In this document: positions 29,644 to 48,705 of the stretch, piece by piece | How positions within the stretch are numbered: position 1 is the first letter of the stretch | Layout of the letters: the number at the start of each line of letters is the position of its first letter | Origin: Desulfogranum japonicum DSM 18378 | GTDB taxonomy: Bacteria > Desulfobacterota > Desulfobulbia > Desulfobulbales > Desulfobulbaceae | Direction: 5' to 3' | DNA length: 51,495 bases | NCBI RefSeq assembly: GCF_000429945.1 | Contig: NZ_AUCV01000047.1 | Span: 1-51,495, forward strand | Notes under the pieces: generated by a model | The model's input: the letters and a program-made list of their open reading frames with translations, nothing else | Databases searched by the model: none | Told to the model about the DNA's origin: nothing | Made by a program: the position numbers and the translations under genes

Positions 29644-30035
29644 GCGCAATCCTCCGGGGGAGCGAAGTATTTGGTTTTTATCCGGATGATACAGCCAATG
29701 AACAGCCCCAGGAGAGCGCCCAGATTGTTGGCGATGAGATCATGGGCACTGAATTCGCGGCCCGGCACCGATCTCTGCATAAACTCTAGGAGGTATCCGT
29801 ATGGTGCAACCGACAGTGCCAGGAGAAGGGCTGTCTTGCGATCAGGAACTCCGAAGAGAGGCAGGGCGGCAAGGAGAAGGAAAAAGAAGGCATGAAGGAG
29901 CTTATCTACGCCAAACTGTTCGCCGGGAGGACTCATCTTCGGCAGCAGGGAGCCCACAGTGATGACAGCCAGAATCGCTAACCAGAGCACCATACTGAGC
30001 CTTTCCGATTTTGTTTTCGGCAGTTGAATATTCAC
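29640..30035 (-). CDS. VanZ-like small membrane protein
   Basis: A 131-residue protein with four predicted helices and the VanZ-family pattern SLLP...DKLLHAFFFLLLA...EFMQRSVPGREFSAHDLIANNLGALLG, given here in part. Such proteins often sit in polysaccharide or exosortase loci; their function is not known. Translation starts at a GTG with AGGAGG 6 nt upstream and overlaps the polymerase stop codon by 4 bp, so the two are translationally coupled. Confidence 0.85.
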   Translation of the reverse strand: MNIQLPKTKSERLSMVLWLAILAVITVGSLLPKMSPPGEQFGVDKLLHAFFFLLLAALPLFGVPDRKTALLLALSVAPYGYLLEFMQRSVPGREFSAHDLIANNLGALLGLFIGCIIRIKTKYFAPPEDCA

Positions 30036-31444
30036 CCCTCACCTCCTATCAAACGGGTACGGAATCCTTCATCCATGCTGTCCTCTACGTCCATTAATAC
30101 CTCACCGTCAGGCTCTTTTACCCCTGTGGTCAGCATGGTATTGATACCGCCGGCAAAGAGCATGAAGATCGGATTCACCATTGCGTTGAGCAGATTGTCG
30201 ATCATGTAAATGGTCAGCATGGTGGCGAAAACAGAGGCTGCAGCATATCTGGGGCTGGCCCACTCCCTGAGTGGAACCTTGACCAGCATGAGGAGCATGG
30301 GCAGAATAATGGTTACAGTCATGAGTACGATGCCGTAGATACCCCGGACCCCGTATGCTATGATCCACAACCCGTCGGTAATGGTCAGGTCTTTGCCGTC
30401 GTCATCATACACCCTGGATCGGCCCCATCCGGCCCAGCCGAAAAAACTGCCTTCCTGGGCCTTGTCTATGAGCATTTCTTCGTTGTCAAAACGAAATTGC
30501 AGGGACTGGGCTCTTTCCGCACTGTAGTTTCGCTCCACCCAGCTGGAAAGGTTTGTACCATTCCAGTAGCCGGTGCTTCTCGTGATCATATAGGCCGGGG
30601 GAATAAGGAGCAGGATGATGAAGAGAATTGGAATTTTTGTACGTTGGGCCGTAAAAAGGGTGAACATCCCGAGAATAAAGAGGCCAAGGGCACCGCTGGA
30701 TTTCATCAGCATGGTTGTTATGAGCAGGGGCGGAATAAACCACACGGCTGGAATGGGGATCAACGGCAGTTTTTTCGGCAGCAGTTTGGCATAGTGCAGC
30801 CATATCCCGAAAAAGGAGGCGGAAACCATCCACATGGCAACCATCAGGCCGTGCTGCATGTAGACCACTGGCCGGAAGCCACCGGCCCGCATGGATTGCA
30901 GAATGTTTGCCTGGCTGAACCCATAGGTCATCCGGTGCAGCTGGGGGCTGATTGCCATTTCGATGAAACAGAAGGGAATGTAGAGAATGCCGCCGATGAA
31001 GATGGCCAGAGCAAGGGTCTTCAGGCCTTCCGGATCGGCGAAATAGACCTTGGCTACAAAATAGGGCAATCCCCAGGTAACGGTTTGTTGCAGGGTCTCG
31101 GACATGCCATCGTAGGCACCAATGCCATTGGCCAGGGATGAAAAAAATGGACAGGTGCACCAGAGAAGCATGGGAAGGTCCATCACGCTCAGCCGAACCG
31201 ACAGCAGGGTCCGGCGGTCAAAAATAAAAGCCCCCCCAAGAACGGCGACACACGTGGCAAACATTTTGGACAGGTCCGGCAAGCCAGGTATGGGAATCGT
31301 TGCCTCGGGCAGAAACATCCAGCCGAGAACAAAGGCGCCGGCAACGACAACTCTCTTCTCAAACCTGGAAAAAGCCCAGACCACCAGCGGCATCCAGGAA
31401 ATCAGGGCCAAAGGCACCAGTGCATTTCCACGCGCCCCAAGCAT
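30032..31444 (-). CDS. O-antigen polymerase/ligase-like membrane protein (Wzy candidate)
   Basis: A 470-residue protein with about ten to twelve hydrophobic helices and a large polar loop in the second half (about 290-370), the usual shape of Wzy polymerases and O-antigen ligases. Conserved sequence in these families is poor, so the call rests on shape and place: it is the only such protein in a locus that also has a flippase, a chain-length protein and an export channel. It overlaps the glycosyltransferase gene upstream by one base (TGATG), implying coupled translation. Confidence 0.75.
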   Translation of the reverse strand: MLGARGNALVPLALISWMPLVVWAFSRFEKRVVVAGAFVLGWMFLPEATIPIPGLPDLSKMFATCVAVLGGAFIFDRRTLLSVRLSVMDLPMLLWCTCPFFSSLANGIGAYDGMSETLQQTVTWGLPYFVAKVYFADPEGLKTLALAIFIGGILYIPFCFIEMAISPQLHRMTYGFSQANILQSMRAGGFRPVVYMQHGLMVAMWMVSASFFGIWLHYAKLLPKKLPLIPIPAVWFIPPLLITTMLMKSSGALGLFILGMFTLFTAQRTKIPILFIILLLIPPAYMITRSTGYWNGTNLSSWVERNYSAERAQSLQFRFDNEEMLIDKAQEGSFFGWAGWGRSRVYDDDGKDLTITDGLWIIAYGVRGIYGIVLMTVTIILPMLLMLVKVPLREWASPRYAAASVFATMLTIYMIDNLLNAMVNPIFMLFAGGINTMLTTGVKEPDGEVLMDVEDSMDEGFRTRLIGGEG

Positions 31445-34298: not shown

Positions 34299-36497
34299 TT
34301 ACTCCGTATTGCCGCGCGTTGTTTTCTGTTTTCTTTTTCGGGCCATGAGCGGCGTGAGGTACCTCAGGGAGGTCTCAATAAGTGTGGTAACCATATCTTT
34401 TTCCTTTTTTCCGCCCCAGTTGAGAACAGGGGCCAGCGCCTTGATCTTAAAGCGAAAGAATAATGATGCAGCCCTGTACAGTTCGTTGTACAGGGTTTTG
34501 TCTCCTTTGCTGACCAGAACTGCTGCGTCGGCTACTCCGCAAAGCAATTCTGTCAGGTCACTGCTCAGGATGGGATCGGTATACACAAAGATCACGTCGT
34601 ACATGTCCCGTTGCTCATGTACCATGTGAATGAATTTGCGGCTGGCTGCCTCGGAACCACTGACAGGCTTGCCGAAAGTGATGATGTCCAGGCCCCTTTC
34701 TTTATCCTTGAGGAGGCAGTTTTCGAGGCTGTCTCTGCCGGTAAGGAAATTTTCCAGGCCATGGGGATGATCCACTGGCAGATCCAGCATTCTGGACAGG
34801 TTGCTGCCGGTATGATCACCGTCTATAAGCAGGATGCGGGAAACTTGCTTTTTCATGGCATGTGCAGTGTTGAGCATGATTGAGCAGGAGCCCACATTCC
34901 GGCTCACTCCCGTGAAGAGAAAGACTTTGGCCTGGTGCTGCTCATGTTCACCAAGCAGGTTAACGGCCAGGCTCCTGATAGCCTTGGAGGACCGGTGGTC
35001 TGGAGCTTCACTGAGTATCTTGAGAAAATCGACTCCTTCAGGGGCCATGGATATGGGCCACAGGGGCTTGCTTCCCACTGCAAATTCAATGTCCTTGGGA
35101 CGGTGGATTCGGTTATCAAGGAGTTCAATGAGGACGAAAATACCGCTTGGCAGGGCGAACGCCAGCACCATGCAGGCCATCAGCAGCTTCTTCAGGTTTG
35201 TGCCGGAGGGTGATTCGGGAAAACGGGCCCTGGACTCGATGGTAACCCGTTGGGGAGCTTTGGACTCGGATTCCAGCTCCAGAATTCTGGTGCTGAGGCG
35301 AAAAAGGGTATCCCGCTTGTTGTAGAGGTCTTTTTCGAGGGAACTGCCCTTGAGGATGCCTAAAGAAACCTCATCGGCCTGAACTCTGGTTTCTTCCAGC
35401 TGGTTTCTGATCTGATCCTCGCTGTCCTTCGCAGCCTGGTACTGGGCCCGGCTGTCGAGAATCTCCCGCTCTATTTCATAATCCCTCTTGCCGGTGAGAA
35501 TCCGTTCGGCGTTGTCTCGTATCTCTTCCCCCAGTTTGGCCTCGTACTCCTTCATGGCCGCCATCCGCTGTTCAACATACTGCCGGTCTTTGTTATTTTT
35601 GGTAATGCCGTCGATGGAGGCACGCAACTCCTGGAGTTTCTGATAGGTCCAGGAGGTGGTGAAGTCCAGGGACTGGTCATTGAGGACCACCTCATCGATC
35701 ATGGGATCAAGGGAGATTTCTGCAAGAGCCTTTCCTTTTTTCAGGGCCTGGTTGTAATTGCTCTCCTTTTCAATGCGGATTGCCATCTGTTGAAGATAAA
35801 TTTTTTGCAGCTGTTCCACCTGCTTCTGCACCATGTTGTAGTCTTCGACAAAGGCTGAAGAGTGAATCTCCTGGGTTACCTGATTGATTTTTTTCTCCAA
35901 TGCGATAACCTCGTGTTCAATGTCATTCCTCTTTTCCCGGAGAAATTCGAGACGGGAGAGATACTTGCTCTCATCCTCTTCTTTGAGTTTGTCGATATAT
36001 GCGTCCATGACACTGTTCAAGGCTCCTGCCAGGCCGGACTGCTTGTCTCCCTCCAGGATAAGCTGAATGAGATGGGTGCGTGATACAGGTGTGATGCGCA
36101 CCCGGCCACGGAGCATATTCATGCGGCCGACATCGTCAATAAAGGGCGGGAAAAAGGCTGCCTGTTCCTCTTCGGTCATCTTGCTTATTGCCGCTTCGAC
36201 CACACTGTCATCCCGCATCCGTTCCACCTGGGTGCGGGCGTAATCATGGAAGAAGTTGATGATTGAAGGGTCTTCAGACTTGGTGATCAGGGAAGGTGTC
36301 ACCGGGGTGATCATTAATTTGCCTGCAACGGTGTAGGTTGGGCGCTCGGCCAGCAGAGCCAGCGGTGCCACCATGGTGAAGATAAACAGAGCACAGACTA
36401 CGATGCTGAAGGCGTACCTCTTGATAAAACCGAAAATGTCTATGGGCTTGATCGCCTTCCTTTCTGGCTTTTTTATTCCATTGGCAGTGGTGTTCAA
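34299..36497 (-). CDS. Wzz/GNVR chain-length determinant with decayed tyrosine-kinase domain
   Basis: A 732-residue polysaccharide co-polymerase. An N-terminal helix (about 28-50), a Wzz domain, a long periplasmic coiled coil (about 190-400), a GNVR-type region and a second helix (about 435-457) are followed by a BY-kinase fold. The kinase signatures are broken: the Walker A site reads GVSRNVGSCS (530-539), with no GK[S/T]; Walker A' is LLIDGD but lacks the usual Arg; the Walker B Asp is displaced (FVYTD, 637-641); and no C-terminal Tyr cluster exists. It should set chain length and link to the export channel but is unlikely to autophosphorylate. Translation starts at a TTG with AGGGGG upstream and overlaps the flippase stop as TTGA. 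Confidence 0.88.
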   Translation of the reverse strand: MNTTANGIKKPERKAIKPIDIFGFIKRYAFSIVVCALFIFTMVAPLALLAERPTYTVAGKLMITPVTPSLITKSEDPSIINFFHDYARTQVERMRDDSVVEAAISKMTEEEQAAFFPPFIDDVGRMNMLRGRVRITPVSRTHLIQLILEGDKQSGLAGALNSVMDAYIDKLKEEDESKYLSRLEFLREKRNDIEHEVIALEKKINQVTQEIHSSAFVEDYNMVQKQVEQLQKIYLQQMAIRIEKESNYNQALKKGKALAEISLDPMIDEVVLNDQSLDFTTSWTYQKLQELRASIDGITKNNKDRQYVEQRMAAMKEYEAKLGEEIRDNAERILTGKRDYEIEREILDSRAQYQAAKDSEDQIRNQLEETRVQADEVSLGILKGSSLEKDLYNKRDTLFRLSTRILELESESKAPQRVTIESRARFPESPSGTNLKKLLMACMVLAFALPSGIFVLIELLDNRIHRPKDIEFAVGSKPLWPISMAPEGVDFLKILSEAPDHRSSKAIRSLAVNLLGEHEQHQAKVFLFTGVSRNVGSCSIMLNTAHAMKKQVSRILLIDGDHTGSNLSRMLDLPVDHPHGLENFLTGRDSLENCLLKDKERGLDIITFGKPVSGSEAASRKFIHMVHEQRDMYDVIFVYTDPILSSDLTELLCGVADAAVLVSKGDKTLYNELYRAASLFFRFKIKALAPVLNWGGKKEKDMVTTLIETSLRYLTPLMARKRKQKTTRGNTE

Positions 36498-39490: not shown

Positions 39491-40702
39491 TCAGGGCTCT
39501 GCTTCTGAGCCGCTGTTACCCAGATATCTGACTGCAAGCAGCGTAATATCATCCTGGGGTGGGTTGCCGGCACCAAATTCAGAGGTGACGGCCTTGACCA
39601 CAGCCTCTGCCGCTTCTTTTGCTGTAGCGCCTGTTTGCTCTCTGATTACAGCTTGAAAACGTTTGTCTGAAAAAAATTCTCCTTCACTGTTTCTATACTC
39701 GGGCAGACCGTCGGTATAAAGAAAGAGGATATCACCGGGCTCCAGTTGTATTTTTCCCTCCTCAAAGGGGAGAACGCCGCCCATGCCGATAATGGTGCCG
39801 CCTTCTTTAAGCGGGAGCAGTTCTCCGCTGTTTTGTAAAAGAAGGGGCGGTGGATGACCAGCGCTGCTGTACAGAACCTGACCGCTGACAATATTGAGTA
39901 AAAAGTAGGAGATGGTGAAATACCTGTCAAAACGTTCCAGGGGAAAGTTCTGGTCGAGATTGGCCAGTACCTTTGCAGGAGAGGTGATTTCATAATGTGG
40001 TGCTGAATCAGTACTCTTTTTGAGAATCATTCCGATATTTGGCTGCAGCTGTTGTTGAACAGAGGCTGTAACCATGGCTGCCGGAACCCCATGACCGCTG
40101 ACGTCAAGGATATAAAAGGCGTAGTGGTTTTCATCTATCCGGAAAATATTGACAATGTCACCACCTACGGCATCACAGGGCTGAAACTGCCAGGCCACAT
40201 CGATGGTCGTACTCTCTGGGGCTTCGTGAGGCAAAAAGCTTTTCTGAATTTCTGCCGCAGCCCTGAGGTCGTTTTCGAGCAAGGCCTGTTTGCGTCGAAG
40301 ATCATGGTTGGCTTTCATGATCTGTTTGGTGAGGGTCCTGATTTCCAGCTGGGTATTTATCCTGGCCAGCAGTTCCCCTTTGCTGAAAGGTTTGGTGATG
40401 TAGTCTCTTCCTCCTAATTCCAGCCCTTTAATCTTGTCAGTGGAATCATCCATGCTGGTGAGAAAGATAATGGGAATGTCGCTGGTTTCCGGATTTGCCT
40501 TTATTTGGGCACAGGTCTGGTATCCATCGATGTCTGGCAGCATGATATCAAGGATGATCAGGTCTGGAGTCAGGTCTTTGGCCAGGGCCAGCCCTTCCGT
40601 ACCCGAGGTCGCTATACGGACATCGTAATATGGTTCAAGTGTCGCACCTATTGACAAGAGCACCTCGGTACTATCGTCAATTGCAAGAATTGTAGTCGCC
40701 AT
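39491..40702 (-). CDS. Response regulator with PP2C (SpoIIE) phosphatase
   Basis: A 403-residue protein. The receiver (1-120) has acceptor Asp52 and TKPF. A short coiled coil (about 125-160) leads to a SpoIIE-type PP2C domain (about 165-398) with AVGGDIVNIF, LDVSGHGVPAAMV, YTDGLPEYRN and QDDITLLAVRY. It is a typical RsbU-like output: phosphorylation of the receiver should switch dephosphorylation of a STAS protein. Two STAS proteins and an RsbW-like kinase are encoded in the same locus (44040-46590). The receiver is closely related to that of the cyclase at 20254. Confidence 0.93.
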   Translation of the reverse strand: MATTILAIDDSTEVLLSIGATLEPYYDVRIATSGTEGLALAKDLTPDLIILDIMLPDIDGYQTCAQIKANPETSDIPIIFLTSMDDSTDKIKGLELGGRDYITKPFSKGELLARINTQLEIRTLTKQIMKANHDLRRKQALLENDLRAAAEIQKSFLPHEAPESTTIDVAWQFQPCDAVGGDIVNIFRIDENHYAFYILDVSGHGVPAAMVTASVQQQLQPNIGMILKKSTDSAPHYEITSPAKVLANLDQNFPLERFDRYFTISYFLLNIVSGQVLYSSAGHPPPLLLQNSGELLPLKEGGTIIGMGGVLPFEEGKIQLEPGDILFLYTDGLPEYRNSEGEFFSDKRFQAVIREQTGATAKEAAEAVVKAVTSEFGAGNPPQDDITLLAVRYLGNSGSEAEP

Positions 40703-44039: not shown

Positions 44040-44492
44040 TTAATTGGTGTGCTCGTTTCTTGTTTCCTGTATCGGCTTCTTTTTGACCATGGTAATGCAG
44101 TTCCACCCATCCTCGTGATTGTAGCTTACCTCATCCATGAAGCTGCGCATGAGAAAGATACCGTACCCGTTTTCCGGGTGACTCTCCAGATCAGGCTCTT
44201 TGATATTGCTGAAATCGAAAGGCTCATTGAAGTCTTTGACTTTGACTATCATGGCTTCTTCATTGAGACTGATCCGTATGATCACATCTTTTTTGCTGTC
44301 TGGATTGGAGCCGTGTTTAACGGCATTGGTGCAGGCCTCGCTGACCACAAGTTCAAGAACAGACAGGAATTTTTTGACTGTCTCTGGTTCTGTTATGTCA
44401 CTGCAGAAGATAGAGCCTGTATTGGCAGCGAATTGGGCTGCAACCCGCACATACCTGGTGGAGGGAGGAAAAGTCAGTTCCAAGGTCTCCAT
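44040..44492 (-). CDS. RsbW-like serine kinase (anti-sigma factor type)
   Basis: A 150-residue HATPase_c_2 protein. The N box is ELVVSEACTNAVKHG (48-61, catalytic Glu52 and metal-binding Asn56), followed by the G1-like VKDFNEPFDF and the G2 box ENGYGIFLMRSFMDEV. Such kinases phosphorylate STAS proteins and bind either them or another partner. The ATG at 44492 has AAGGAGG 6 nt upstream, a perfect site; the longer frame begins at TTG (44513) and is rejected. It directly follows the STAS gene at 44506, its likely substrate. No sigma factor gene is nearby. Confidence 0.92.
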   Translation of the reverse strand: METLELTFPPSTRYVRVAAQFAANTGSIFCSDITEPETVKKFLSVLELVVSEACTNAVKHGSNPDSKKDVIIRISLNEEAMIVKVKDFNEPFDFSNIKEPDLESHPENGYGIFLMRSFMDEVSYNHEDGWNCITMVKKKPIQETRNEHTN

Positions 44493-44505
44493 ACTGGCCT
44501 CCTTC

Positions 44506-44841
44506 TCAACCAAAACTTTTCACGGCCTCTTCTGCGGAGTCGTAGATATCAAAAACCCTGTGCAGGCGGACTATCTCTATCAGGGGACGAATATTGTCCG
44601 TGATGCAGGCCAGTTTGATATCACCCTCATACTGGCGGAACTGGCGCAAAGCTGAGACAATGCACCCCAGTCCGCTACTGTCGACAAAAGAAACATTGCC
44701 GAAATCAAGCACTATCTTGATGTTTCCCTCATCTGCGAGTCGGGACATGGCATTGCGAAATTCCTGGACAGTGTCAGCCTCCAGACGGTCATCGATTCTG
44801 ACCCGGGTGACGTCTCCAACCTGACTGCTTTGTATGGGCAT
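44506..44841 (-). CDS. STAS-domain protein (anti-anti-sigma type)
   Basis: A 111-residue STAS protein with the phospho-acceptor segment VDSSGLGC (Ser55 or Ser56). Family members are inactivated by RsbW-type kinases and reactivated by PP2C phosphatases; the gene for such a kinase follows 13 bp downstream, and the PP2C regulator is at 39491. The start has AGGAG 8 nt upstream. Confidence 0.92.
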   Translation of the reverse strand: MPIQSSQVGDVTRVRIDDRLEADTVQEFRNAMSRLADEGNIKIVLDFGNVSFVDSSGLGCIVSALRQFRQYEGDIKLACITDNIRPLIEIVRLHRVFDIYDSAEEAVKSFG

Positions 44842-44857
44842 GATTTTTCTCCTATGG

Positions 44858-46234
44858 TTACCAGCGGTTGATAAGGGTTTTGCAAATAACCTTGATATCC
44901 CCGACTAGGCTGCGGTTGGCTGCAAAGAAGCGCTCGGTTATCTCCTCCTGGAAATCTCCCTCCGCAATATTTTCGGCTTCGGAAAAATAAAAAATTCCTG
45001 GCAGGTAGTTGGCAAAGTCGTCAAAGAGTATTTTGCCCTCTGCCGTCGCCTGCAGGGGTTTGTTGCCAACCAGGTCAAGTCTGCCGTTGAGAACCTGGGG
45101 AAGGAGAAAAACCTTGTCCATGGCAAGTCCCCTGGCGATTTTGGCAAGAAACGATGCCGTTGTAACGGTATATCGGTCAACTGTCAGCGCTTTTCCATCG
45201 GCCAGGAGGATACTGTTTTTCTCCTGATACCAGTTGCCGCTGTTTTTCAGCAAAAGCCGTAACAGAGTGGCCGGAAGAATGGCCAGAACATAGAGAATCA
45301 GGGATAAACACCAGTGAAGCACCATTTTGAGCGGCTGATTCCTTTTTGTGTTGCGGATGCCAGAAAGAAGATGCTGGTCCACGAACTGGAACGCTTTGCC
45401 GCTTTCCGCCGAAATGGCCATATTACTCTGGATGATCTTTTCCCTGATGGTCAGGTCTGCACCAATGTAGGTGTTATCAAGTATGATGGAGTGTGAAATC
45501 ACGGTGCCGGAATCAATGATGACATTATTGCCCATAATAGCCATCGGACCGATCTCACATCCTTTTCCGATCTGCACGTTGTTGCCCAGGAGGATGGGTT
45601 TGCTGATTTTGGCAGTTTTCGGTATGGCGACGTTTCTCCCTATATACACGCCCTCTTCATTGTTGTAGCCCGGCAGAATGTATTGGTGGGCATCCTGGGA
45701 GAGAATATCCATGGACAAGGTCAAAAGATTACTGATTCCCTGAAGTGGATTGATGCTCAGATGCAGCCCCTCAGCAGCTTTGAGGATGACTGGAGGACCA
45801 CTCTCCCCCTGGAAGCGTATCGCACCACTGTCGCAGCATAGTTCGGTTGTACCGCCTTGGGGATCAAACAACTTTTCATACGTACCATTCTTGTCAAATC
45901 TGACAAAGAAGAAACCATCCAGGATCAGCAGGGGGGAGCCACCGGAAAACCCGCTGTTTTTCTTGAGAATATCCTCCAGACAATCGTTTTCCTTCATCGC
46001 GCTGTAGGAGATTTCCACCCCCCAGCGGTTGCCGGTGCTGAAGTAGTCTTCTATTGTGTTATCAGGGCAGTCAAAGACAAATCGCACCTTGTCTGCTCCG
46101 CATAGAATGCAGAACTCCAACAGATATTCAAGCAGGGGCTTGTTGCAGAGCGGGATCATGGCTGGATGGTACACCGGCACCAGCTCGCGCAACCAGCTGC
46201 ATTTTGCCTCGCTGATACGTATAAGTCCTTTCAT
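44858..46234 (-). CDS. Nucleotidyltransferase-like/beta-helix/decayed sugar-transferase fusion
   Basis: A 458-residue multi-domain protein. The N-terminus (1-125) resembles sugar-phosphate nucleotidyltransferases (PLCNKPLLEYLLEF) but lacks the GxGxRxxPxT signature, so catalysis is doubtful. Hexapeptide repeats follow (about 195-290, YIGRNVAIPKTAKIS, IGKGCEIGPMAIMGNN). A membrane stretch (about 310-330) leads to a C-terminal part that mimics the end of polyisoprenyl-phosphate sugar transferases: LLPQVLNGRLDLVGNKPL against the family's LPQLxNVLxGxMSLVGPRP. The catalytic core of that family is absent. The ATG at 46234 is preferred over a TTG at 46255. It lies between the two STAS genes. Confidence 0.75.
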   Translation of the reverse strand: MKGLIRISEAKCSWLRELVPVYHPAMIPLCNKPLLEYLLEFCILCGADKVRFVFDCPDNTIEDYFSTGNRWGVEISYSAMKENDCLEDILKKNSGFSGGSPLLILDGFFFVRFDKNGTYEKLFDPQGGTTELCCDSGAIRFQGESGPPVILKAAEGLHLSINPLQGISNLLTLSMDILSQDAHQYILPGYNNEEGVYIGRNVAIPKTAKISKPILLGNNVQIGKGCEIGPMAIMGNNVIIDSGTVISHSIILDNTYIGADLTIREKIIQSNMAISAESGKAFQFVDQHLLSGIRNTKRNQPLKMVLHWCLSLILYVLAILPATLLRLLLKNSGNWYQEKNSILLADGKALTVDRYTVTTASFLAKIARGLAMDKVFLLPQVLNGRLDLVGNKPLQATAEGKILFDDFANYLPGIFYFSEAENIAEGDFQEEITERFFAANRSLVGDIKVICKTLINRW

Positions 46235-46251: not shown

Positions 46252-46590
46252 TCAATTTTCGGAAAAGGAATCGATCGCTTCCTCCGTGGTGGAGAAGAGC
46301 TGGAAGATCTGATCTGCCCTGGTGATCTCAAAGAGCATGCGTACCTGGTCATTGACGGCTGCCAGTCTGATGTCTTTGCCTGCACTGATGGTCCGTTTCA
46401 GGATGCGCAGCAGAATACCGAGGCCGGAACTGTCGATGAACTCAAGGTCGGTGCAGTCAAAGACAAAATTCGGTTTACTGTCCATCCAGGTGTCAAAGGA
46501 CTGCAGCAGTTCATATTCCGCCTCCATATCCAGCCGCCCGCTGAGGCCGACCACCAGAACTGTACCAACACGTTGCTCCGAGTATTGCAT
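46252..46590 (-). CDS. STAS-domain protein (anti-anti-sigma type)
   Basis: A 112-residue STAS protein with FIDSSGLGIL (Ser54 or Ser55 as phospho-acceptor). It differs clearly from the STAS protein at 44506 and is not a simple recent duplicate. It may be a second substrate of the kinase at 44040, or act on the neighbouring biosynthetic enzymes. An AGGA site lies 8-9 nt before the ATG. Confidence 0.92.
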   Translation of the reverse strand: MQYSEQRVGTVLVVGLSGRLDMEAEYELLQSFDTWMDSKPNFVFDCTDLEFIDSSGLGILLRILKRTISAGKDIRLAAVNDQVRMLFEITRADQIFQLFSTTEEAIDSFSEN

Positions 46591-46608: not shown

Positions 46609-48705
46609 TTAATAGGCTCCCTTTCCGGTGAGAACTGCCGGAATGGTTTTGAGAAGAATAATGATATCTTTGAAAAAGCTGGAACTCTGGATGTACTCCA
46701 TGTCCAGCTGCACCTGACCGGAAAAGGGGATGTCACTTCTCCCCGAGACCTGCCATATACAGGTGATTCCAGGGGTTATATGCAGCCTTTTTCGTTGTTC
46801 CAGGGTATATTCCGCAACTTCGACAGGCAGTGCCGGTCTCGGACCGACCAGGCTCATGTCGCCTTTGAGGACGTTGACCAGTTGAGGTAACTCATCTATG
46901 GAGAATTTGCGGATAAACCTGCCTATTCTGGTTACCCTCGGGTCGTTTTTCATCTTGAAGATAACACCGTCTCCGGATTCGTTATCAGCCATGAGTTCTT
47001 CCTTTATTTTGTCGGCGTTCATCACCATGGAGCGAAACTTGAAAAAAACAAAATGTCGGCCGTCTTTTCCCACTCTGATCTGGCTGTAGAAGATCGGTCC
47101 GGGATCTTCCCTGTAAATCAGGGCAGCAACAATCAGGAAGAGAGGGGAGAGGAGAACCAGCATGAGTACGGAGACGGAGATATCCAAAAGACGTTTGAGA
47201 AAATAGGAAAAACCGACGGTAAACCGCCAGACCGCCATTTTCGCCCGACGCGGACTGGAAGGATGGTGGGTGGTGGCAGCCTCTATCCGCTCAATCAGCT
47301 GTTTTCTTTTTTCAGCATCATTGATCACCGGTTCTCCATTGACCGGCTCAGTGGAATCCTCAGCAGAGAGCCGGCCCGGATAGATTTTCCAGCGCATGAC
47401 CCGAAAGAGGAAGAGGGGGTTGCCTATTACATAACGTCTCCACATCCTGCCTGGTTCCTGGAGCATGCGATACACCCACTCAAGGCCGATTTCTCTCAGC
47501 CATCGAGGGGCTCTCTTTGTTCTTTCCGAGTAGAAGTCGAAAAGGCCGCCCACGCCCATGAGGATATTGGGTGTAAGTTGTTCCCTGTGCGTACTGATCC
47601 ATTTTTCCTGGAGCGGAGCCCCAAAGGCAACCAGGAGAATTTCAGCTCCTGAGTCATTGATGGCCGCGATGACCTTTTCACTCTCTGTCTCCCTGTCGAA
47701 ATAGCCGTGGTGGGTGCCGGCAATGCTCACCCTGTACACCTCGGCAAGTCTGGCAGCCATCTGTTCGGCGACCTGGGGCCTCCCCCCGAGAAGGAACAGG
47801 GAATATCCATTGGCTGCTGCCATTTCGCAGAGATAAGGGAGCATGTCGGTGCCGTTGACATTTTCCTTCAGTGGGGTTTGCAGCATGTTACCGGCAAGAA
47901 CGAGGCCGATGCCGTCCGGAAGTACCAGATTTTCCCTGTGTAAAATCTGAAAGTAGTCGCGGTCGCTGAAGATTTTGTTGAGGCAGTCAGCATTGACGAA
48001 AAAAATGGATCGTCTTTCTTTGTTTGTGATCGTCTCTTGGATTGCTCCAATGGCTTCAACCATGGTCATGTTGGCGATCTTCAGACCAAAGAGTTCAAGC
48101 GTGTCGAGTTCAATCCTTTCTTTACTCTGGAAAAAGATTGCCGGTATGGTTCGCAGGAGCAGGAGCATATCAAACACAGGGCTCTTTTTGAACATATACT
48201 CCCATTCAATTGCCTCTTCTCCTTCGTGTGCAATTTTACTTGCCCGCCTCACGTAACTGAGAGAAAAAACACCGGGATTGATGGTGCTGATATAGGCCTG
48301 TTTCTGCCCCCTGGGACCCCCGGATAATTTTCTGCTTTCCGGACCTACCAGAGCCAGTTGTCCAGAGAGGACGTGATAAAAAAGAGCCAGTTTTTTCAGC
48401 AATGGCCGGGGGGTATTAAAGGTGTAGATGGTCAGCGGTTTTGCGTTGGCTCCGGCAACCGTTTGCGGGTGAAAAACCCTTTTGCCGCGGGTAATTTTGC
48501 GGATGAGGAAAACAACGTGGACCGGCAGGGTGAAGAAGAGCAGAACCGGAATGGTGACAAGCAATTCCACAAAGCGGTTGAGGAGCAGGCCGAAAAGGGC
48601 AATGCTTCGAAAGAGAAAACGCCGCCTCTTCGCTTTTCTTGCATCCTGGGCACCACTGTGGCGCTTGATTAGCCGTTCAAGTTTTTTGATACGCTTCTGT
48701 GTCAT
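46609..48705 (-). CDS. Fused sugar transferase: decayed PGT-WecG/TagA-active PGT
   Basis: A 698-residue fusion. Residues about 30-205 resemble a polyisoprenyl-phosphate sugar transferase (membrane stretch, LSGQLALVGPESRKL, INPGVFSL, LLLLRTIPAIFF) but lack the catalytic Asp-Glu region. Residues about 210-400 are a WecG/TagA/CpsF glycosyltransferase (FVNADCLNKIF, LPDGIGLV, FLLGGRPQVAEQMA, VAFGAPLQEKWI, VGGLFDFYSERTKRAP). Residues about 490-698 form a complete PGT: a membrane helix, FKFRSM, KFSIDELPQLVNVLKGDMSLVGPRP (shortened) and ITPGITCIWQVSGR. The C-terminal unit should load the first sugar-phosphate on undecaprenyl phosphate and the middle unit the second sugar. Confidence 0.9.
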   Translation of the reverse strand: MTQKRIKKLERLIKRHSGAQDARKAKRRRFLFRSIALFGLLLNRFVELLVTIPVLLFFTLPVHVVFLIRKITRGKRVFHPQTVAGANAKPLTIYTFNTPRPLLKKLALFYHVLSGQLALVGPESRKLSGGPRGQKQAYISTINPGVFSLSYVRRASKIAHEGEEAIEWEYMFKKSPVFDMLLLLRTIPAIFFQSKERIELDTLELFGLKIANMTMVEAIGAIQETITNKERRSIFFVNADCLNKIFSDRDYFQILHRENLVLPDGIGLVLAGNMLQTPLKENVNGTDMLPYLCEMAAANGYSLFLLGGRPQVAEQMAARLAEVYRVSIAGTHHGYFDRETESEKVIAAINDSGAEILLVAFGAPLQEKWISTHREQLTPNILMGVGGLFDFYSERTKRAPRWLREIGLEWVYRMLQEPGRMWRRYVIGNPLFLFRVMRWKIYPGRLSAEDSTEPVNGEPVINDAEKRKQLIERIEAATTHHPSSPRRAKMAVWRFTVGFSYFLKRLLDISVSVLMLVLLSPLFLIVAALIYREDPGPIFYSQIRVGKDGRHFVFFKFRSMVMNADKIKEELMADNESGDGVIFKMKNDPRVTRIGRFIRKFSIDELPQLVNVLKGDMSLVGPRPALPVEVAEYTLEQRKRLHITPGITCIWQVSGRSDIPFSGQVQLDMEYIQSSSFFKDIIILLKTIPAVLTGKGAY

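Follow-up and report, generated by a model that had tools for sequence, protein, structure and literature searches.

The question raised by this locus is what a protein made of a nucleotidyltransferase-like domain, a beta-helix and a sugar-transferase-like end, with its catalytic motifs missing, does between two STAS genes of an exopolysaccharide locus. The protein, called FAM here, is encoded on the reverse strand at 44858..46234 of a stretch of Desulfogranum japonicum DSM 18378 DNA (contig NZ_AUCV01000047.1, assembly GCF_000429945.1), the whole 51,495 nucleotides of which are referred to as the window. An earlier, sequence-only reading had described three weakened enzyme parts in one chain, with a decayed sugar-transferase end, and suggested a regulatory or scaffolding protein, possibly the target of the STAS proteins. 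FAM is a member of a conserved family that has a well-defined genomic partnership and, as far as we found, no name. We think, at a little better than an even chance, that it is a membrane-bound, non-catalytic pseudoenzyme subunit of an exopolysaccharide-initiation complex, and that a partner switch acts through it post-translationally. Genomic context is the main evidence for this.

FAM joins three domains and lacks the catalytic motifs of NTases and PGTs

In the following, PGT stands for monotopic phosphoglycosyl transferase, NTase for nucleotidyltransferase and LbH for left-handed beta-helix. FAM and its parts lie in the window as follows:

44858..46234, reverse strand: FAM, triple-domain pseudoenzyme, 458 amino acids plus stop (open reading frame, Pfam, profiles, alignments)
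45695..46234, reverse strand: NTase-like domain, FAM residues 1-180, without GxGTR or PK (Pfam match below cut-off, signature alignment, motif tally)
45365..45694, reverse strand: LbH of hexapeptide repeats, FAM residues 181-290 (Hexapep above cut-off)
45245..45337, reverse strand: one hydrophobic helix, proline in its centre, FAM residues 300-330, where PGTs have their membrane helix (hydropathy)
44861..45346, reverse strand: PGT-like domain, FAM residues 297-458, with the G(x)LxLVG turn and without the catalytic block (profile and alignment)

A family profile from a 16-row alignment matched NTase/beta-helix proteins over positions 1-282 (8x7s_B, 6e-42), among them also eIF2B epsilon, GMPPB and archaeal sugar-1-phosphate transferases, and a 19-row C-terminal profile matched the PGTs PglC (8e37_B, residues 7-187 of 205, E 7e-22) and WbaP (8t53_A, 4e-18). 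The three parts thus stand in one chain, as the sequence-only reading had proposed, and the alignment with a solved PGT over nearly the whole domain suggests that the C-terminal part has the PGT fold. In the window protein the hexapeptide repeats score 37.1 bits against a Pfam Hexapep cut-off of 27, which places it among the LbH proteins; LbH_EIF2B was matched at E 0.001 in 16/16 members scanned, with the window protein below the cut-off (46.2 versus 54 bits). Hydropathy peaks at 2.2 at FAM residues 310-311, and all 19 aligned members have a hydrophobic peak where the membrane helix of PGTs lies. Scored against the enzyme families, FAM stays below both Pfam cut-offs, with 22.7 versus 27 bits for Bac_transf (PF02397), where the match is confined to the C-terminal half (residues 364-455, model positions 80-175 of 179), and 14.1 versus 21.2 bits for NTP_transferase (PF00483; E 0.037).

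The catalytic motifs are missing at both ends. At the C-terminus, 'LLPQVLNGRLDLVGNKP' occupies the position of 'DELPQLxNVxxGxMSLVGPRP' in the linked intact PGTs, and alignment with these enzymes finds no KFRSM, acidic-dyad block, DE, RP, PGxT or WQxxGR in FAM, in agreement with the earlier remark that this end imitates an LPQLxNVLxGxMSLVGP region whose catalytic core is gone. The family as a whole lacks the segment that runs from KFRSM to the DPR region and retains the G-x-LxLVG turn. At the N-terminus, 'MKGLIRISEAKCSWLRELVPVYHPAMIPLCNKP' occupies the position of GxGTR and PK in intact NTases; GxGTR and the PK lysine are both absent from the signature alignment, and the missing NTase signature had been read correctly.

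This loss is common to the family. GxGTR, KFRSM, DExPQ, PGxT and WQxxGR each occur in 0/31 family proteins (window included), G-x-RP is likewise absent in 31/31, and the LVG-like turn (G-x-LxLVG) is kept in 30/31. Looser NTase patterns do match, namely (A/G)GxG(T/S)(R/K) in 2/31, PK in 1/31 and a GD-strand pattern in 5/31, all of them off the expected places: at residue 373, at residue 159 (PK) and at residues 214-274 in the beta-helix. Among the PGT open reading frames of the family loci, KFRSM, DExPQ, PGxT and WQxxGR are each present in 27/28, the misses being a truncated protein in locus L132 (KFRSM), a second, unlinked PGT in L063 (DExPQ, WQ) and the PGT of L066 (PGxT). GxGTR is present in 9/9 intact-NTase controls, five of which were chosen by GxGTR, leaving four independent ones.

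FAM is a conserved family under purifying selection

FAM is under purifying selection. Comparison with the homologue of Desulforhopalus vacuolatus (Desulfobulbales; 71% identity) gave a ratio of nonsynonymous to synonymous substitution (dN/dS) of ~0.16, with a dN of 0.190 and a dS of 1.22, the latter near saturation. Per-domain dN values of 0.197, 0.157 and 0.205 indicate that all three domains are constrained, and seven other genes of the locus showed a dN of 0.11-0.20 in the same comparison. The term 'decayed' therefore does not describe the present state of the protein, whose relatives also lack the same motifs. What stands of the earlier description is the weakening of the enzyme parts (motifs absent in 31/31) and, by the context set out below, the idea of a regulatory or scaffolding role.

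The sampled members share a common descent. The pseudo-NTase/beta-helix part of 19 members forms one clade (support 99/98) in a tree that also held three NTase-like-LbH-PGT proteins and nine intact NTases, and the PGT-like part forms one clade at 93/88, which is not strong. The N-terminal pseudo-PGTs of WecG proteins, described below, fall outside this PGT-like clade in two groups of six and four.

We searched relatives of the window's genome within its phylum, and the search for the same fusion that the sequence-only reading had suggested was positive: 30 relatives share the architecture, making 31 proteins from 18 genera with the window, and the known total is 31 copies in 28 carrier genomes. 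Full-length relatives are present in 6/257 genomes of the order (G000, G524, G065, G545, G513 and G525; G and L numbers are our labels for genomes and loci) and in at least 13/395 genomes of the phylum sample, the window's genome included; two orders of that sample gave 6/24 and 9/18 genomes. The counts for the window's order and for the phylum sample may be low, since 3-6 candidates were scored per genome. Among the seven genomes of the window's genus, FAM was found only in the window's own. A seventh match in the order, from G034, was not taken as a relative, since the protein is an intact NTase that has no C-terminal part of this kind. A profile search of genome contigs gave one relative, that of D. 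vacuolatus. A family search at E 0.001 listed 54/73 genomes, of which G000 and G065 were kept, along with two NTase-like loci of G034 (one of them L004/L072), and the remaining matches, short beta-helix or NTase ones, were dropped. The phylum search listed 114/395 genomes; its matches other than full-length ones cover one or two domains and belong to NTases (many in frames of ~830-930 amino acids), PGTs and NTase-like-LbH-PGT chains. Seven of these shorter matches were retrieved, and twelve of the PGT ones served as controls. Six plasmid records contained NTase or beta-helix fragments only, none spanning 80% of the query.

FAM genes are linked to one PGT subfamily and to partner-switching genes

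The genes on which the context argument draws are the following:

46609..48705, reverse strand: pseudo-PGT, WecG/TagA glycosyltransferase and intact PGT in one chain of 698 amino acids
48106..48621, reverse strand: N-terminal pseudo-PGT of the 698-residue protein (BLASTP and alignment with intact PGTs)
46630..47196, reverse strand: intact PGT domain of the 698-residue protein, with KFRSM, DELPQL, GPRP and PGITCIWQVSGR (PF02397, 223.8 bits)
46252..46590, reverse strand: STAS protein 1 (STAS1), anti-anti-sigma type, DSSGLG (PF01740, 4e-19; TIGR00377 above cut-off)
44506..44841, reverse strand: STAS protein 2 (STAS2), DSSGLG (PF01740, 8e-17; TIGR00377 above cut-off)
44040..44513, reverse strand: RsbW/SpoIIAB-like HATPase (PF13581, 8e-25)
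39491..40702, reverse strand: response regulator-SpoIIE (PP2C) phosphatase (PF00072 and PF07228)

Pfam thus confirms that FAM lies between two STAS genes. The membership of a partner-switching module is there as well, with DSSG in both STAS proteins, whose serine is the probable phosphorylation site by analogy with the family, a PF13581 HATPase and a PF07228 phosphatase; the response regulator-SpoIIE phosphatase is likely the input of the switch.

We compared the 30 loci with a full-length relative (window not counted) with 17 control loci around other PGTs. The window's genome supplied five of these; twelve came from elsewhere in the phylum and were selected by PGT match to profile A2. Within 5 kb, an intact PGT is present in 26/30 family loci, STAS in 23/30, HATPase in 19/30 and SpoIIE in 15/30, whereas STAS, HATPase, SpoIIE and a further PGT were all found in 0/17 control loci; less than 5 kb was available on one side in eleven family and four control loci. 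Fisher's test for STAS linkage gave 1.6e-7, and STAS is present in 13/17 genera by hand count. For L058 and L133, tblastn was used to check both STAS and PGT. Together with the conservation of the family and the purifying selection on FAM, these figures make the regulatory or scaffolding idea likely.

The linked PGTs are themselves a distinct group. In a tree with the 17 control and three fused PGTs, the 26 linked ones, that of the window among them, group as a separate clade (100/99). A search of the 257 genomes of the order with the window PGT at E 1e-60 gave six matches at 68-100% identity, which are in the same 6/257 genomes as full-length FAM and in the same loci, side by side; the other 40 matches listed have at most 58% identity, and 39/40 lie in frames of 471-545 amino acids. 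In the family loci, 22/28 PGT open reading frames are 236-278 amino acids long, the window PGT being counted as a 218-residue domain cut from the 698-residue protein; the remaining ones include a truncated frame of 119 residues and frames of 354, 614, 663 and 736 residues, the last two also carrying WecG. Because the linked PGTs are mostly short and the others in the order long, FAM may act in trans as a substitute for the N-terminal half of long PGTs, a suggestion that we make cautiously from frame lengths.

A second pseudo-PGT accompanies part of the family. The N-terminal ~170 amino acids of the 46609 product align with the FAM C-terminus (BLASTP, 26% over 148 amino acids, with an E of 0.001 that is a single-comparison value), so that the 'first' decayed transferase end to which the sequence-only reading had counted FAM as second is real. 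In the window and in L067, pseudo-PGT-WecG and intact PGT make up a single chain; in L068-L071 they are encoded by two genes in the same order. The pseudo-PGT-WecG protein accompanies the family in the window and in 9/30 loci (L065-L071, L138 and L140).

The arrangement of the switch genes is largely kept as well. In the window and L067-L071, the six loci of the order, STAS1 lies between PGT and FAM in 6/6, and STAS2 and HATPase follow FAM in 5/6, with an opposite-strand gene and then the contig end in L068; STAS1 and STAS2 might therefore differ in function. In L053 and L054, both of one genus, WecG carries a C-terminal STAS domain (Pfam, over cut-off) and is encoded between PGT and FAM, and in L056 response regulator, SpoIIE and HATPase form one chain. 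A SigB/F/G-type sigma factor (TIGR02980) over the curated cut-off was found in 0/18 carrier genomes examined, of 28 known, and in 1/14 control genomes, and a scan of 20 proteins encoded between 25 and 50 kb of the window found no sigma factor. From the missing SigB/F/G factor and the STAS-WecG fusions we argue for a target within the polysaccharide machinery, other sigma classes being possible.

Proposed role of FAM and alternative explanations

In the role that we propose, the C-terminal pseudo-PGT of FAM, with its membrane helix and LVG core and no active site, would pair with the adjacent intact PGT and, in the window's order, also with the pseudo-PGT-WecG protein, so that intact PGT and pseudo-PGT would form a heteromer at the membrane. 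The pseudo-NTase and beta-helix would offer a cytosolic docking face to the STAS proteins in either their unphosphorylated or their phosphorylated form. The HATPase would phosphorylate both STAS proteins and the response-regulator SpoIIE phosphatase would reverse this; the phosphorylation state would decide whether STAS binds the complex, and binding would start or stop the initiating step of polysaccharide synthesis, with no sigma factor involved. The membrane placement of FAM, its pairing with the PGT, the binding of STAS and the sign of control are what we infer here. FAM is a plausible STAS target. The fuller claim, that the partner switch directly controls the committed first exopolysaccharide step, with phospho-controlled STAS binding FAM and gating the intact short PGT while transcription is unchanged, is put forward tentatively and is considerably less secure than the subunit role.

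Several observations weigh against this proposal. STAS was not seen within 5 kb in 7/30 loci (L059, L060, L065, L066, L132, L138 and L140), of which L059, L132 and L140 lie at most 1.3 kb from a contig end. Of the four loci without intact PGT (L059, at a contig edge, L065, L138 and L140), the last three also have no STAS within 5 kb and carry the pseudo-PGT-WecG protein in place of the PGT, and therefore the family may work without STAS or an intact PGT. The HATPase count of 19 includes L053, where the gene is distant, on the opposite strand and histidine-kinase-like; 10/30 family loci come from one genus, the context profiles were trained on family loci, and both STAS-WecG fusions are from a single genus. 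STAS, HATPase or SpoIIE genes also adjoin intact NTases in L072, whose STAS gene is seen in the overlapping L004, and in L115, which has SpoIIE and STAS, so the linkage is not specific to the pseudoenzyme. The window HATPase has its N box and GYG box, and its G1 box is altered (DFNEPF for DxGxG), which makes its kinase activity uncertain. Weaker sigma-70-family genes below the SigB/F/G cut-off are present in 18/18 carrier genomes, and the output of the switch may lie elsewhere, in a different sigma factor or a different enzyme; the STAS target might also be the PGT, the WecG protein or yet another component. Some members stand closer to enzymes than FAM, with Bac_transf matched at E 0.001 in 14/16 (best 8e-15) and NTP_transferase in 9/16. 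Short PGTs also occur without FAM, 3/17 control PGTs being in frames of 256, 204 and 199 amino acids. AlphaFold2 on FAM, with L032 as the sole other alignment row, gave no usable model (pLDDT 34, pTM 0.25).

The alternative that survives best, though we hold it unlikely, is that FAM is a structural scaffold or membrane tether holding PGT and WecG, with STAS, HATPase and SpoIIE acting elsewhere, e.g. on transcription or chain export. This would suit L065, L138 and L140, where the pseudo-PGT-WecG protein and FAM are found and none of STAS, HATPase, SpoIIE or intact PGT within 5 kb, and also L060 and L066, which have the PGT without STAS. Against it stand the STAS linkage (23/30 versus 0/17) and the fusion of STAS to WecG inside the cluster (L053, L054), both of which point to the complex itself as what STAS acts on.

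A GMPPA-like ligand sensor, whose pseudo-NTase would recognise a sugar phosphate or nucleotide sugar and regulate the PGT by feedback, appears improbable. The family profile does match GMPPB, GMPPA and eIF2B subunits, and in GMPPA there is already an NTase relative that regulates and does not catalyse. GMPPA, however, retains much of the signature loop, whereas in this family GxGTR is not found in any protein and the single PK, at residue 159, lies outside the loop as aligned for 19 members. Still more doubtful is a residual enzyme activity, or one of another kind. The conservation of the full chain would fit it, as would the beta-helix, which is common to acyltransferases and gave weak NCBIfam matches, but the catalytic motifs sought are absent and no NCBIfam model reached its cut-off among the 25 listed for FAM. 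An acyltransferase role of the beta-helix was set aside for want of support. A decaying pseudogene or a chance fusion from an assembly error, to which the lost motifs and the word 'decayed' would point, is rejected by the intact open reading frame with short gaps to both STAS genes, the dN/dS and the 31 proteins of the same architecture.

Gene arrangement and other features of the locus

FAM, STAS1, STAS2 and the HATPase are four closely spaced, co-directional genes behind the gene of the 698-residue protein (46609-48705). The FAM start codon is an ATG 17 bases past the STAS1 stop; an alternative TTG start, 21 bases upstream, would overlap the STAS1 stop codon. STAS2 begins 16 bases past the FAM end and the HATPase frame is directly next, its likely start being an ATG at 44492 behind AAGGAGG in the junction sequence. 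The G1 box of the HATPase is changed similarly in L069-L071 (D-x-N), and L055 retains DPGPGF.

By Pfam, the exopolysaccharide locus around FAM includes a UDPGP-type uridylyltransferase, several glycosyltransferases, an acetyltransferase-like protein, the response regulator-SpoIIE phosphatase and matches that we take to be a Wza-type exporter and a Wzx-type flippase, these two names being our own labels. Further frames lack an assignment. The 527-residue protein at 40913-42496 matches nothing in Pfam or NCBIfam at the thresholds applied, and homologues are present in L032/L067, L056, L058 and L064. Those at 34299-36497 (732 amino acids) and 30032-31444 (470 amino acids) have no Pfam match at 0.001; both have homologues close to the FAM-type genes of L056, L058 and L064, and those of 34299-36497 are found additionally in L032, L071 and L072.

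Comparison with known systems

No paper on the FAM family was found in a search of open-licence papers. FAM resembles PGTs (PF02397; PglC 8e37, WbaP 8t53) in that its C-terminus aligns with nearly the full domain, membrane helix included, and in the G-x-LxLVG turn; unlike them, the family lacks KFRSM, DExPQ, G-x-RP, PGxT and WQxxGR. Its N-terminus and beta-helix match LbH sugar-1-phosphate NTases (GMPPA/GMPPB, eIF2B gamma/epsilon), from which it differs in the lost signature loop, in the PGT-like membrane domain fused behind and in being linked to a PGT and not to an NTase.

The three-domain order is shared with NTase-like-LbH-PGT chains, of which a fourth (L113) is cut by a contig end:

L111, 8686-10446: NTase-like domain, beta-helix and intact PGT in a single chain
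L112, 8017-9780: NTase-like domain, beta-helix and intact PGT in a single chain
L114, 8553-10325: NTase-like domain, beta-helix and intact PGT in a single chain

Unlike FAM, these have an intact PGT (Pfam 217-236 bits) and NTP_transferase over cut-off, and they form a separate clade; in L111, L112 and L114 the NTase part is without GxGTR although NTP_transferase is over cut-off. The L111 chain lies near CsgE- and CsgF-like genes. In L072 (7307-8473) and L115 (7957-9120), proteins with an intact NTase signature and a beta-helix are encoded near SpoIIE, STAS or HATPase genes, and from this arrangement the link between NTases and partner switches may be wider than the pseudoenzyme.

As in the SpoIIAA/SpoIIAB/SpoIIE and RsbV/RsbW/RsbU modules, STAS (with the DSxG serine), HATPase_c_2 and a SpoIIE phosphatase are found in one region; here, in contrast, they lie in an exopolysaccharide locus with two STAS proteins, and no SigB/F/G-type sigma factor is over cut-off in the 18 carrier genomes examined. 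STAS switches tied to polysaccharide or biofilm are described for Vibrio fischeri SypA/SypE and Nostoc HmpU/V/W, the SypA target being unknown according to the part of a STAS review consulted (PMC8256260). The likeness to these systems is drawn from their description, and the consulted part of the review mentions no FAM-type protein for them (PMC8256260). The same text describes Anabaena all4160 as a glycosyltransferase with an N-terminal STAS domain (PMC8256260); as in L053/L054, STAS is covalently joined to a glycosyltransferase, but at the opposite end, and no pseudoenzyme subunit is mentioned in that part.

Implications

FAM is a protein from two retired enzyme classes that has remained under lasting selection. 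Since the family travels with one PGT subfamily, and mostly with STAS genes, it offers a concrete candidate for a STAS target. If the proposed role is true, FAM would be a new kind of STAS target and a model for SypA-like systems, with control exerted at the membrane, where sugar is committed to the polymer.
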